This document shows, one piece after another, positions 26,204 through 32,448 of a DNA stretch of 64,000 nt (position 1 is its first letter; each line of letters starts with the position of its first letter). This DNA is from Ruegeria sp. TM1040 (lineage in GTDB: Bacteria > Pseudomonadota > Alphaproteobacteria > Rhodobacterales > Rhodobacteraceae). The DNA is taken from the NCBI RefSeq assembly GCF_000014065.1, contig NC_008044.1, positions 2,255,501 through 2,319,500 of the forward strand, written 5' to 3'. Below the pieces are notes generated by a model that made no database searches, was not told the DNA's origin, and saw nothing but the letters and a program-made list of their open reading frames with translations. The position numbers were made by a program, and so were the translations under genes.

Positions 26204-27226
26204 TCAGGCAGACTTGCTGTTTTGCTCGACCAGATCCATCTCATCTTCGAGGCTGGGCGTATAGAACATATGCTGCGCTTTGCCCGCCCGTTTGGAGGCG
26301 TAGAGCGCAAGGTCGGCCTGATGCAATAGCGTCGCCGGCAGAGGCTGCGCGACATCCGTGGACAAGGTGGTGCCTGCAGAGGCGGAAATCCGGCACTCAT
26401 CCGCGCCATACATGATCGGCTCTTCAAGGCGCTCGATCAGGCGGCAGGCCAGATCATTGATCCGGTTGCGATCCATCAACCCCTCAAACACCAGCACAAA
26501 CTCGTCACCACCGATGCGCGCAACGGTGTCAGATTTGCGTGTACACTCCACCATGATGGAGGCCACCCGCTGCAACACCGCATCACCTGCGGCATGACCG
26601 TAGGTGTCATTGACAGATTTGAAGAAGTCGAGATCGACATTCATCAGGGCAAAGTCGCGCCCGCCGCTGATCAGGCGGTTCAACACATGGTCCATGGCGC
26701 GACGGTTCTTCAGCCCGGTCAACGTATCGGTAAAGGCCTGCTCCTCGGCGGCAATCTTGGCCCCCTGCAAGCGCAGGTTCAGCTGGCGCGACGCCTCCAT
26801 AGCGGCAGATTTCGCCTCCACCAGGTAAAGCATCTCGATCGTGAGATCCGTGGGCGAGAAATCCTGACTGGTCAGGTTGAAGTCGCGCACCGCATCCAGC
26901 ACCGAAATCCCGAAAGAGAGATTTATGAATGCGCCCCGCCCCTTGGGGAGCGGAACCAACACGCCCTTCATCCGGGTGTGCGGCGCGTCATGAAGCTGAA
27001 AGTGCAGTTTGCTGCCAGCGGTATTCATGAGATCAGCAACGGCTTTGACGGAGCGAGGCCGCTGCAGGTCCAGCACCTCGAGCACCGGTTTGCCCAACCA
27101 GCCATTGTCGCCCCGGATCTTGTCGAGGGTCGGACCGTGGCTCACGATCAGGCCATCCGCGTCAATGATCACATGCATTGGGCAGAGTTGGTCGGCAAGG
27201 CCGGTCAGCTGTTCGAAGGTCATCAT
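26204..27226 (-). CDS. Diguanylate cyclase with N-terminal HNOBA (H-NOX-associated) domain
   Basis: This 340-residue cytoplasmic protein has residues 10-135 resembling the haem-NO-binding-associated domain (LADQLCPMHVIIDADGLIV, FINLSFGIS, DFSPTDLTIEMLYLVE). A short helical connector (135-165) leads into a GGDEF domain with intact GGDEF at 239-243 and an intact inhibitory RxxD (RKSD, 230-233). It should make c-di-GMP and be product-inhibited. Its ATG overlaps the H-NOX-like gene stop (ATGA), so the two proteins are made together, and H-NOX proteins are known to control such partners by direct contact. It ends at its own terminator. Confidence 0.92.
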   Translation of the reverse strand: MMTFEQLTGLADQLCPMHVIIDADGLIVSHGPTLDKIRGDNGWLGKPVLEVLDLQRPRSVKAVADLMNTAGSKLHFQLHDAPHTRMKGVLVPLPKGRGAFINLSFGISVLDAVRDFNLTSQDFSPTDLTIEMLYLVEAKSAAMEASRQLNLRLQGAKIAAEEQAFTDTLTGLKNRRAMDHVLNRLISGGRDFALMNVDLDFFKSVNDTYGHAAGDAVLQRVASIMVECTRKSDTVARIGGDEFVLVFEGLMDRNRINDLACRLIERLEEPIMYGADECRISASAGTTLSTDVAQPLPATLLHQADLALYASKRAGKAQHMFYTPSLEDEMDLVEQNSKSA

Positions 27227-27810
27227 AATGTATGCGCCCCCAGTTCAAACGCGCGCCCCTCGCTGAAATCGCTTTCCACGAGGGTGATCGAAATCACGTC
27301 GGAGCCTTCCTGCTCCCCCACGAGATCAAGGATCACCAGAGCGCCGTAATCATCCGCCATCGCACGAAGAACCCCCGTCATCACCTGTGCATAGCCCGGC
27401 ACGCCCGGTTGGCACAGCAACTGGAACTGACCCGGCGCCTGTTCGATCAACTCAAGCCCAGGCAAATGCAGATCCGACACTGCAAGGCGGGCGCGATCCG
27501 GCAGGTCATCAAGCGAGTGCAGGAATTCAACGTAGTTCACGCCACCAAAGCGCAGCAGGCGCCTGAGAGCCTCGACCTGAGGGTTGGAGACCAGAAATGT
27601 CCCCACATCTTCGAGGATTTCATCAAGGGGGCGTTCGAGTTTGGCTTCGACCGCGCGCAGCATTCGAATCGATTGATCTTCAGGGTACACAAGCATGGCC
27701 TCGAACTCGGTAAACCCGAGCCCGCTTTCATCCATGATGTCTGCCCAGCGCTTGTCACCATAAGTGCTTGTGACAAAAGCCTGAACAGCCCTGTTGATCA
27801 AACCGTGCAT
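27223..27810 (-). CDS. Haem NO-binding (H-NOX) domain-like protein
   Basis: This 195-residue stand-alone H-NOX-like protein begins with MHGLINRAVQAFV, the typical family start, and has the GG...FLxSLD region at 89-101. In canonical H-NOX proteins the proximal haem His follows in LDxxH; here the aligned position is Pro104 (SLDDLP), and the nearest His is H98. I also cannot find the YxSxR haem-propionate motif. Whether haem is bound is therefore open. It is translationally coupled to the HNOBA-GGDEF gene, so it is probably the sensory partner of that cyclase. A perfect dyad lies 31 bp upstream of the start. Confidence 0.85.
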   Translation of the reverse strand: MHGLINRAVQAFVTSTYGDKRWADIMDESGLGFTEFEAMLVYPEDQSIRMLRAVEAKLERPLDEILEDVGTFLVSNPQVEALRRLLRFGGVNYVEFLHSLDDLPDRARLAVSDLHLPGLELIEQAPGQFQLLCQPGVPGYAQVMTGVLRAMADDYGALVILDLVGEQEGSDVISITLVESDFSEGRAFELGAHTL

Positions 27811-28225: not shown

Positions 28226-29785
28226 TTAAAAATCTGTGGGGGCTCCGCCTTCTTCCTTCCGGCGGGCGACGAAGGCCTGCAGCTCTTCGCGAATGCCCTC
28301 ATCAAGCGTCGGAGCCTCGAATTCGTTGATGATCTGCTTGAAGAGACCGTTTGCTCGCTGCGCGGTCCAGGTTCCGCCCGCGGCCTCCCAAGCCTCATAA
28401 TTGTGCCAGTCGCTCAGGAACGGCTGATAAAAGGCTGTCGCATAACGATCCTGCGTGTGCTGGATGCCGAAGAAATGTCCATCATTTCCGACCTCCCGGA
28501 TCGCATCGAGCGCGATTTCCTCGGGGCCGGTGGCATTGATGACCGGGTCCATGTAGCGCTGGATCATCTGCAAGACCTCGCAATCCATGATGAATTTCTC
28601 TGGAGAGGCGATCAGCCCGCCTTCGAGCCAGCCCGCAGCGTGGTAGACCATATTCGTGCCCGACTGCACCGCTGCCCAGAGCGAGTTCGACGTCTCCCAC
28701 ATGGCTTGCCCATCCGGCACATTGGCCGCGCAAACGCCGGAGGACCGCATCGGCAATCCGTAAAATCGTGCCATCTGCCCGGTCATTTGAGTCGCGCGCA
28801 TATATTCAGGAGTTCCAAATGCAGGTGCTCCGGACTTCATGTCGACATTGGAGGTAAACGTTCCGATCGCGCAGGGCGTGCCGGGGCGGACATATTGGAA
28901 CAGGGCAATGGCGCAGAGCGCCTCTGCCAGCGACTGCGCCACGGCCCCCGCCATGGTGACCGGAGCCATCGCGCCTGCCAGCGTGAACGGTGACACGATC
29001 ACGGGTTGGCCCCGCCGCACCAGCCTCAGCGCACCATCAATCATCGGCTCGTCATGCTTCAAGGGCGAGGTGGAGTTGATGTTGGTGTACATGTGCGGTT
29101 GGGAGTCGAATTCCTCATGGCTCAGACCACCCGCGATGCGCACCATCTCCATCACGTCCTCGACCCGCTCTTTGCCGAGCGAATAGGCATGCATCACCTT
29201 GTCGGTGAGCGTGAGCTTGTCATAAAGCACATCGAGGTGACGGATCGAGGCATGGAGATCGACAGGCTCCACCGGATAGCCCCCCGCAAAATGGATGCAG
29301 TTGAAATACTGCGTCAATTTCAGCAGGTTCTGGCAGTGTTCACGGGTGCCGGGGACCTTCTTGTTCAGGTCCATATCCCAATAGTTCGGCGGCGAGGACA
29401 CATTGCCAAAGACGATCGAATTGCCGCCGATGCGAATGGCGCGCTCTGGGTTGCGCGGCGTAAGGGTGAACTCCGAGGGGACCTTGCCCACCATCTCCAT
29501 CACAAACTCGCGGTCCATGCGCACCAAAGCGCCATCCACCTTGAGCCCCGCCTCCTTGAAGATCTCAAGCGCTTCGTCGTTCAGGAACTCGACGCCGATC
29601 TCCTCGAGAATGCGCATCGCGCCATCATGGATTGCGGCAATACCCTCTGCGGTGAGCGGCTCGACCGGGCGGTCAATATTGACCGGAGGCTTCCATGGCA
29701 TCTGCTCCAAAGTGGCGGCTCCCCGACGGGCGGCTGCACCGGCCCGGCCTCCTCCCCGGCGTCGGCGCGCTTGTGTCTGCGACAT
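28226..29785 (-). CDS. Trimethylamine methyltransferase (MttB) family protein, non-pyrrolysine
   Basis: A 519-residue TIM-barrel corrinoid methyltransferase homologue. MttB superfamily stretches are visible throughout (GAMRILEEIGVEFLNDEAL, VIVSPFTLAGAMAPVTMAGA, AAGWLEGGLIASPEKFIMD). The frame is continuous with no internal amber codon, so it lacks the pyrrolysine of true trimethylamine enzymes; such members include glycine betaine, proline betaine and carnitine methyltransferases. The start at 29785 has AGGAGAGGG upstream. No corrinoid protein gene is adjacent. Glycine betaine is an attractive substrate given the carnitine cluster in this window, but this is inference. Confidence 0.87.
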   Translation of the reverse strand: MSQTQARRRRGGGRAGAAARRGAATLEQMPWKPPVNIDRPVEPLTAEGIAAIHDGAMRILEEIGVEFLNDEALEIFKEAGLKVDGALVRMDREFVMEMVGKVPSEFTLTPRNPERAIRIGGNSIVFGNVSSPPNYWDMDLNKKVPGTREHCQNLLKLTQYFNCIHFAGGYPVEPVDLHASIRHLDVLYDKLTLTDKVMHAYSLGKERVEDVMEMVRIAGGLSHEEFDSQPHMYTNINSTSPLKHDEPMIDGALRLVRRGQPVIVSPFTLAGAMAPVTMAGAVAQSLAEALCAIALFQYVRPGTPCAIGTFTSNVDMKSGAPAFGTPEYMRATQMTGQMARFYGLPMRSSGVCAANVPDGQAMWETSNSLWAAVQSGTNMVYHAAGWLEGGLIASPEKFIMDCEVLQMIQRYMDPVINATGPEEIALDAIREVGNDGHFFGIQHTQDRYATAFYQPFLSDWHNYEAWEAAGGTWTAQRANGLFKQIINEFEAPTLDEGIREELQAFVARRKEEGGAPTDF

Positions 29786-29914
29786 GGGATTCCCTCTCCT
29801 GCGACGGATTTTTACCCGTCCAGATTGGGCCGGATGACACCAGACACACCTGTCCAATACCGACACCTCATGTCGCATTTGCCCTTCGTGATGCCGCCGG
29901 AGTGCGTTCCAGTC

Positions 29915-30928: not shown

Positions 30929-31044
30929 AACGGCCTCCTTGTCGACATTTTTAAGTCAATTTGCACTACCCCCGAAAGGGTTTGTTAACCAGTCTCAACA
31001 ACACTCAAACACAAGCAAAAGCCGGGAATGAAGGTGTTTTCAAC

Positions 31045-32448
31045 GTGCAAGGCACGATCCTAGTCATAGATGGGGTATCCACCAATCGCATCATCTTGAA
31101 GGTGCAACTGACAGCAGCCTGTTTCCAGGTGCTGCAGGCCGACAGCCTGTCGGCCGCGATGGCCCTGATGAAAGACAACCGCCCGGATCTCGTCCTCACT
31201 GCAATGACCCTGCCGGACGGCGATGCCGCGGATGTCAAACGCGCCCTGGACCGGGTGCGCCATGGCGTTGGGGTGCCGGTGATTGCGCTCTGCCCGCAAA
31301 ACGATCGCGGCACCCGCATCATGGCGCTGTCGGCGGGGATCGACGAGGTGCTGCCGCTTCCGGTGGACGACATGATCCTGCAGGCGCGCATCCGCAGCCT
31401 GTTGCGCATGCGCATGCAAGACGACGAACTGCACCTGCGCGAAGAGGGCGTTGCCGCCTTCTCCGTACCGCTGAAGGACACCACCGCCGTGCAGATCACA
31501 CAATCGGATGCGACTGTCGCATTGGTTTGTCATGATCTGCAGACGGCGCAAAAGTGGAAATCCCGCCTCAGCGCCAGCGTGGACTTCCGTCTGAAAGCTT
31601 ACAATGTCGACGCGATCCAGGATCTGATGCGCACGCCGGTGCCGGATGTGATCGTGATCGAGCTTAACGAACACTCGGCTGGCATGGCGCTACGTCTGTT
31701 GGCGGATCTGCGTGCCCGGATCAGCACCCGCGACAGTGTGGTGATCGCGGTGCCGAACCCCGCCGATGCCAGCATCGCGGCAGAGGCGCTGGACCGGGGT
31801 GCGCATGACGTCTTGCACTGCGGCTTTCAGGTGGATGAACTGGCCCTACGGATCACCGCGCAGCTTGCACATCAGCAGCGCGCCGAAATGATCCGCAACA
31901 CCCTGCGTGATGGCTATCGTGCGGCGATGCGTGATCCGATGACCGGGCTCTACAATCGCCGCTACGCACGCCCGTTCCTCGAACAGGTGACCCAAGACGC
32001 CCAATCTGCGGGATCAAATTTCGCCGTGATGGTTGCGGATCTGGACCATTTCAAGCGCATCAACGATGCCTATGGCCACCCGGTGGGCGATGCGGTGCTG
32101 ATCGAAGCCGCGCGTCGCCTTCAAGCGGAGTTGCGTGGTTGCGACCTGCTGGCGCGGATCGGTGGGGAGGAGTTCATGCTGGTGCTGCCGGATCTGCACC
32201 CCGACGAGGCAAGCACCGTGGCCAACCGACTGTGCCGCGCGATCAGCGGCAGCCCCTTTGTGGTCAAAGGCTGCGCTCAGCCTCTCGAGGTTACAATCAG
32301 CGTCGGCGCCGTCGTCGCGCAGCATGGCACGCAGCCGTTGAGCGCCGATGATCTCTTTGTGGCGGCGGACCGCACGCTCTATGAGGCCAAGCACGCGGGC
32401 CGTAACCAGGCCGCGATCAAGGGGCTCACACAGAGCGCCGCCGCCTGA
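31045..32448 (+). CDS. PleD-like diguanylate cyclase with two degenerate receiver domains
   Basis: This 467-residue protein has REC-REC-GGDEF order. The start is a GTG (MQGTILVIDG) with AAGG upstream; the longer frame to 30961 is unlikely. In the first receiver the expected phospho-Asp aligns with Ala53 (DLVLTAMTLP) and the acidic pair is reduced to ID; the second receiver (from VALVCHDLQ) also lacks a convincing acceptor. The GGDEF domain is intact as GGEEF with an RxxD inhibitory site (RGCD) upstream, so it should make c-di-GMP independently of classical phosphorylation. Divergent from DUF3572. Confidence 0.9.
   Translation: MQGTILVIDGVSTNRIILKVQLTAACFQVLQADSLSAAMALMKDNRPDLVLTAMTLPDGDAADVKRALDRVRHGVGVPVIALCPQNDRGTRIMALSAGIDEVLPLPVDDMILQARIRSLLRMRMQDDELHLREEGVAAFSVPLKDTTAVQITQSDATVALVCHDLQTAQKWKSRLSASVDFRLKAYNVDAIQDLMRTPVPDVIVIELNEHSAGMALRLLADLRARISTRDSVVIAVPNPADASIAAEALDRGAHDVLHCGFQVDELALRITAQLAHQQRAEMIRNTLRDGYRAAMRDPMTGLYNRRYARPFLEQVTQDAQSAGSNFAVMVADLDHFKRINDAYGHPVGDAVLIEAARRLQAELRGCDLLARIGGEEFMLVLPDLHPDEASTVANRLCRAISGSPFVVKGCAQPLEVTISVGAVVAQHGTQPLSADDLFVAADRTLYEAKHAGRNQAAIKGLTQSAAA

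Follow-up and report, generated by a model that had tools for sequence, protein, structure and literature searches.

The window analyzed here is the whole of a 64,000 nucleotide stretch of Ruegeria sp. TM1040 (contig NC_008044.1, family Rhodobacteraceae), in which an H-NOX gene overlaps the gene of a putative diguanylate cyclase. The features considered are as follows.

26204-27226, minus strand: HNOBA-GGDEF diguanylate cyclase, DgcA/Dgc1-like (PF00990, E 1.1e-39; PF07701, E 1.7e-6)
27223-27226, minus strand: ATGA, the start codon of the cyclase overlapping the stop codon of the H-NOX gene (from the sequence)
27223-27810, minus strand: H-NOX (HNOB) protein of Group 5 type, without the heme histidine and YxSxR (PF07700, AF2 model, H-NOX structural matches)
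27400-27414, minus strand: C133-Q-P135-G-V137, the place of the YxSxR heme-propionate motif (from alignments)
27499-27501, minus strand: codon of Pro104, the place of the proximal heme histidine (from alignments to H105 of Alr2278 and the histidines of the Dinoroseobacter shibae H-NOX and of L003, an H-NOX of another class)
28226-29878, minus strand: upstream gene of the MTTB family (trimethylamine methyltransferase-like), a neighbor only (PF06253, E 3.8e-228)

The H-NOX open reading frame begins with ATG and encodes 195 amino acids. HNOB (PF07700) is the only Pfam family found in the protein, matching residues 2-156 with an E-value of 3.2e-21 and 76.4 bits against a cut-off of 25.5, and no NCBIfam model was found for it. 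The genome as a whole gave a single HNOB and a single HNOBA match in a profile search. When the protein, less its initial methionine, was compared with PDB sequences by phmmer, the nearest solved sequences were Nostoc Alr2278 H-NOX (E 2.5e-13, query residues 1-162 aligned) and sGC beta-1. An AF2 model built from an 81-sequence alignment has a mean pLDDT of 93.8, and the top matches in a structural search with this model were all H-NOX domains, with Nostoc 2o09_A matched at Z 20.7 and rmsd 2.2 over 178 aligned residues. The H-NOX start and core that had been read from the sequence are thus borne out, and an H-NOX sequence with a confidently predicted H-NOX fold is confirmed.

Of the features expected of a heme-binding, gas-sensing H-NOX, the proximal histidine and the YxSxR motif are both missing. 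The phmmer alignment places heme His105 of Alr2278 opposite Pro104, in the string SLDDLP, and the Y-x-S-x-R column opposite C133-x-P135-x-V137 (C-Q-P-G-V), and further alignments give the same columns. The Shewanella and Vibrio H-NOX proteins and Nostoc Alr2278 share the fold (S. oneidensis 4u99_B, Z 19.2) at 14-26% identity, but they have both the heme histidine and YxSxR. The coupled enzyme has an HNOBA domain scoring 28.2 bits against a Pfam cut-off of 23.4, and its intact GGDEF signature, with an I-site RxxD five residues ahead (RKSDTVARIGGDEF), assigns it by prediction as a diguanylate cyclase. The sequence-only reading had reported the proline at the ligand position, the missing YxSxR and translational coupling to an HNOBA-GGDEF enzyme, and these observations are confirmed because profile, alignment, the ATGA overlap at 27226-27223 and AF2 model all agree.

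We compared the protein with other H-NOX sequences in a sample of 394 Rhodobacteraceae genomes, of which 296 have an HNOB match. Sequences were taken from 267 of these, and the 29 genomes left out of the counts include some that carry fragments or an in-frame stop. The sequences were sorted into 241 window-like proteins (one per genome, the window protein included) and 43 other-class proteins in 42 genomes, with 16 genomes carrying both. Omitted from the 241 are L001, L002 and L352-L355, which are duplicates, and 80 named loci. L298 and L312 are without a clear start, so that 238 relatives are counted wherever gene position was needed.

Residue 104 is proline in 175 of the 241 and histidine in 20 (8.3%), while the other 46 have arginine (10), asparagine (8), glutamine (7), alanine (6), serine (5), glutamate (3), glycine (3), threonine (2), aspartate (1) or lysine (1). 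Histidine is absent from 221 members of the group. None of the 241 has the full YxSxR at the aligned place, and a Y-S-R string occurs elsewhere in 4 of 238. By comparison, 42 of the 43 other-class proteins have the histidine and 41 have a Y.S.R string. The 80 nearest named genomes are all non-histidine (Pro 59, Ser 16, Ala 4, Thr 1), the nearest named relative being Tritonibacter mobilis at 93% identity. A search of 385 alphaproteobacterial genomes with the window protein gave matches in nine. Four are of the window type and all of these belong to the window's family, the window genome included; one is a histidine-bearing paralogue in the family (G294); and the remaining four, outside the family, all have the histidine and Y-S-R.

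The pairing with the cyclase is nearly universal. A cyclase gene lies directly downstream of the H-NOX gene in 237 of 238 relatives, and the exception (L175) is at a contig end. The GGDEF motif is intact in 235 of these 237 partners and the RxxD site in 232, while the four-nucleotide overlap, [AGT]TGA at the H-NOX stop, is found in 177 of 238 relatives. Of the 229 relatives whose flank is long enough, 86 have an upstream MTTB-like gene in the same orientation, and MTTB is named among the neighbor families in the legend of the Group 5 neighborhood figure of Lee-Lopez and Yukl (PMC8738867).

Group 5 is the class that those authors described in 2022 from a network built from the Paracoccus denitrificans protein, and they report that fewer than 10% of its members keep the histidine, that most have proline and that none has a conserved cysteine (PMC8738867). 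The printed histidine share agrees with the 20 of 241 found here. Loss of the axial histidine in the Paracoccus and Rhodobacter sphaeroides proteins had been noted earlier by Kumar and Spiro (2017), who cite Iyer 2003 and Plate and Marletta 2013 for it (PMC5588039). The window protein and its relatives have the histidine replaced, no conserved cysteine, glycine hinges and an adjacent GGDEF gene, as well as the MTTB neighbor, and against the published description of the type protein, Pden_3719 with DgcA (Pden_3720), we found no difference. The window protein is therefore another member of Group 5, and the class itself is not new. The oddity implied by the sequence-only reading is gone, as ligand loss is the rule in Rhodobacteraceae and is already in print (PMC8738867, PMC5588039). 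What we add are the counts at position 104 and at YxSxR, the cyclase pairing and the placing of D. shibae in the same clade. As a separate observation, one other-class paralogue (L045, in genome G086) has glutamine in place of the histidine and keeps the Y.S.R string, which hints that the ligand may have been lost outside Group 5 as well.

A protein of this kind could still bind heme, through its hydrophobic pocket or through some other residue, and continue to sense NO or CO. The hydrophobic core is kept, as is Pro117, and in ordinary H-NOX proteins the proximal Pro117 presses on the heme. The D. shibae protein reportedly binds heme despite lacking the tyrosine and serine of YxSxR (PMC8846402). 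We also looked for a substitute ligand among the 241 relatives and found none, since H2, H76, H98 and C133 do not separate the types. H98, raised as a possible ligand in the sequence-only reading, is histidine in 137 of 241, at similar frequency in histidine-keeping (12/20) and proline (107/175) proteins, and is rejected. H2 is histidine in 221 of 241, but it is equally common in histidine-keeping (18/20) and proline (160/175) proteins and for this reason is no replacement ligand. H76, like H98 and C133, is not conserved, and the proline, alanine, serine, arginine, glutamine, asparagine, glutamate and glycine found at position 104 cannot all be ligands. We consider retention of heme rather unlikely. 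Whatever its role, His2 stands right behind the start methionine, where the other-class protein L003 has tyrosine.

The one cysteine of the window protein, C133, stands at the position of the YxSxR tyrosine and raises a different possibility, that the protein senses redox state or S-nitrosation as the zinc-site H-NOX of Vibrio cholerae does. Column 133 is the best cysteine column of the alignment, with cysteine in 137 of 241, but valine replaces it in 55. The V. cholerae protein is a heme-free redox sensor and so resembles the window protein in having a heme-independent H-NOX function, but it has both the heme histidine and a three-cysteine zinc site, and the window protein has neither (PMC7108781). 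Together with the published description of Group 5 as being without a conserved cysteine (PMC8738867), this makes sensing through cysteine very unlikely.

The loss of the defining cofactor ligand, and the fragments that alone are left in a few genomes, might also be taken as signs of a decaying pseudo-sensor without function. This we regard as scarcely credible. The dN/dS of the window gene against seven near relatives is 0.04-0.10, and such purifying selection largely refutes decay; the adjoining cyclase is kept in nearly all of the group, and deletion of hnoX in P. denitrificans has phenotypes (PMC5588039, PMC12582929). Within the group P117, G70 and G146 are invariant (241/241), and R83, R84, R87, G90, D153, G156 and F188 nearly so. 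By their numbering, we take G70 and G146 to be the Group 5 glycine hinge residues. The protein is thus under strong purifying selection with its ligand position set free. Three blocks, RRLLRFGG (83-90), ADDYGxL (152-158) and GRxFxL (185-190), are near-invariant in Group 5 and differ from the sequence of other-class L003. These blocks are candidates for a cyclase-binding surface.

The tree requires no fewer than 51 changes at position 104 itself, and in none of 238 relatives is this residue leucine, isoleucine, valine, phenylalanine, methionine, tryptophan, tyrosine or cysteine. Positions 101 and 105, on the same helix, are also polar or small. A site that varies so freely and yet is never hydrophobic looks as though it has not simply been packed shut, and with the remaining scaffold conserved the former heme pocket might hold another small ligand, the protein then sensing something else. 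Against this, residues near the old site vary (133 and 135-137 at 2.0-3.7 bits), and a conserved polar pocket signature was sought in the group alignment and none was found. We think this unlikely.

The histidine and non-histidine proteins are interspersed on the trees. Three FastTree trees, the first poorly resolved, require 15, 13 and 12 changes between histidine and non-histidine for the 20 histidine rows. When the tree was rooted at its midpoint and the residue treated as two states, a histidine ancestor with loss and rare regain had a log likelihood of -50.3, compared with -53.9 for irreversible loss and -54.0 for a non-histidine root. This favors, no more than suggestively, an ancestral histidine that was often lost and seldom regained. 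The residues at 104 are mostly one base from the codons of histidine (CAY) or proline (CCN). By plain Fisher tests two pocket residues appear enriched with His104, S8 (17/20 against 64/221) and W135 (9/20 against 19/221); on eight independent pairs across supported branches neither reached significance among the tests listed.

The D. shibae H-NOX (L122, in genome G035) is one of the histidine-keeping proteins and belongs to the same clade as the window protein. G035 was identified as D. shibae DFL 12 by its plasmid NC_009955.1, where a comparison of 3,000 bases gave a 100% match at the same coordinates. The two H-NOX proteins share about 45% identity, the same operon arrangement with the same cyclase next, and the same fold as modeled. 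The D. shibae protein differs in having GLDDLHDRARL at the ligand, and at the place of YxSxR it has C-x-W-x-R, in which the tyrosine and serine are missing. It is listed as heme-binding, with an NO-bound form that inhibits Dgc1, in a review (PMC8846402) that draws on the original work of Bedrunka (2018). Because this relative, with the same partner, keeps the histidine and reportedly binds heme, Pro104 stands in place of a reportedly functional ligand. Because it does so within the same clade, a single conserved scaffold has carried both sensor and ligand-less forms, one giving way to the other.

With moderate confidence, we propose that the Group 5 H-NOX without a heme ligand is a dedicated regulatory subunit of the HNOBA-GGDEF diguanylate cyclase with which it is co-translated. 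The observations behind this are the fold, the missing ligand and propionate motif, the near-universal cyclase pairing, the purifying selection and the common descent with D. shibae. The sequence-only reading had offered three options, namely heme-based sensing of something other than NO, heme held through H98, or heme-free regulation of the cyclase; the last is the best supported of the three, now with the losses at the ligand and YxSxR, the fold and the pairing behind it, while H98 found no support. A parallel exists in the alpha subunit of sGC, whose H-NOX domain is heme-free and is kept inside a cyclase complex, though sGC alpha is eukaryotic and fused to its guanylate cyclase. Counting against a heme-free regulatory subunit is the invariance of Pro117, which a wholly heme-free protein does not obviously need.

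As such a subunit, the proline form would need neither heme nor direct NO binding. It would dock on the cyclase, probably at HNOBA, and keep its activity down. Ordinary H-NOX signaling has NO displace the proximal histidine, with a movement of helix F and a rotation of the two subdomains that pivots on glycine hinges (PMC7108781). Because this signaling breaks the Fe-His bond, and the histidine is absent here, the protein may perhaps stay permanently near the NO-on, cyclase-inhibiting state, and output would then depend on how much H-NOX is present or on another input, rather than on NO at heme. We found no biochemistry for any proline-type protein in the literature consulted, and among the titles listed no printed "constitutive, proline" reading. 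The window model is closer to NO-activated human sGC beta (Z 21.7/21.6/20.9) than to the inactive form (Z 20.1/19.7/18.8). We considered this closeness as a sign of a locked NO-on state and rejected it; it is uninformative about the proline because the histidine-keeping D. shibae model ranks alike (NO-activated Z 21.0/20.8/20.5, inactive Z 19.3/19.1/18.4).

The P. denitrificans protein, which also lacks the histidine, fits a cyclase brake in its genetics. Biofilm is deficient in the hnoX mutant and over-produced in the dgcAB mutant, opposite phenotypes that led the authors to suggest inhibition of DgcA by H-NOX, although they still draw NO acting through H-NOX (PMC5588039). Inhibition of the cyclase there is unproved because c-di-GMP could not be quantified (PMC12582929).

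A further proposal is that in Rhodobacteraceae single-base changes at one codon (CAY to CCY and onward) have repeatedly made of an NO sensor a brake on the cyclase that senses nothing and is permanently NO-on, with the histidine sometimes regained, so that a change from histidine to proline would switch an unchanged pair between NO-responsive and NO-blind control of c-di-GMP. This is possible but doubtful. Evidence that the histidine is kept where NO is made is weak. Counted by eye, either a NirK match over its cut-off or a PF02239 match of at least 300 bits is present in 12 of 20 histidine genomes and 21 of 55 proline genomes, a subset of the 175 taken in locus order (Fisher p 0.12). For PF02239 alone the counts are 10 of 20 and 12 of 55 (p 0.024, with no correction for relatedness or for testing twice). 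Neither NirK nor PF02239 is present in the window genome.

The H-NOX and cyclase pair is present in most of the family genomes sampled, and its sensor matches a family named for heme and NO binding. Pathway schemes show NO as their input, and if the ligand-less form is NO-blind such schemes are incorrect in most of the family. The finding is ordinary within the family and its main point is already in print (PMC8738867, PMC5588039). Since a reportedly heme-binding histidine-type protein in D. shibae and the proline-type proteins share their partner, the sensed input can be tested by exchange of a single codon.

The window also contains, at 30961-32448 on the plus strand and roughly 3.2 kb away from the H-NOX gene, a second diguanylate-cyclase gene with receiver and GGDEF domains (PleD-like). 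Paracoccus likewise has a DgcB with a receiver domain (PMC5588039).
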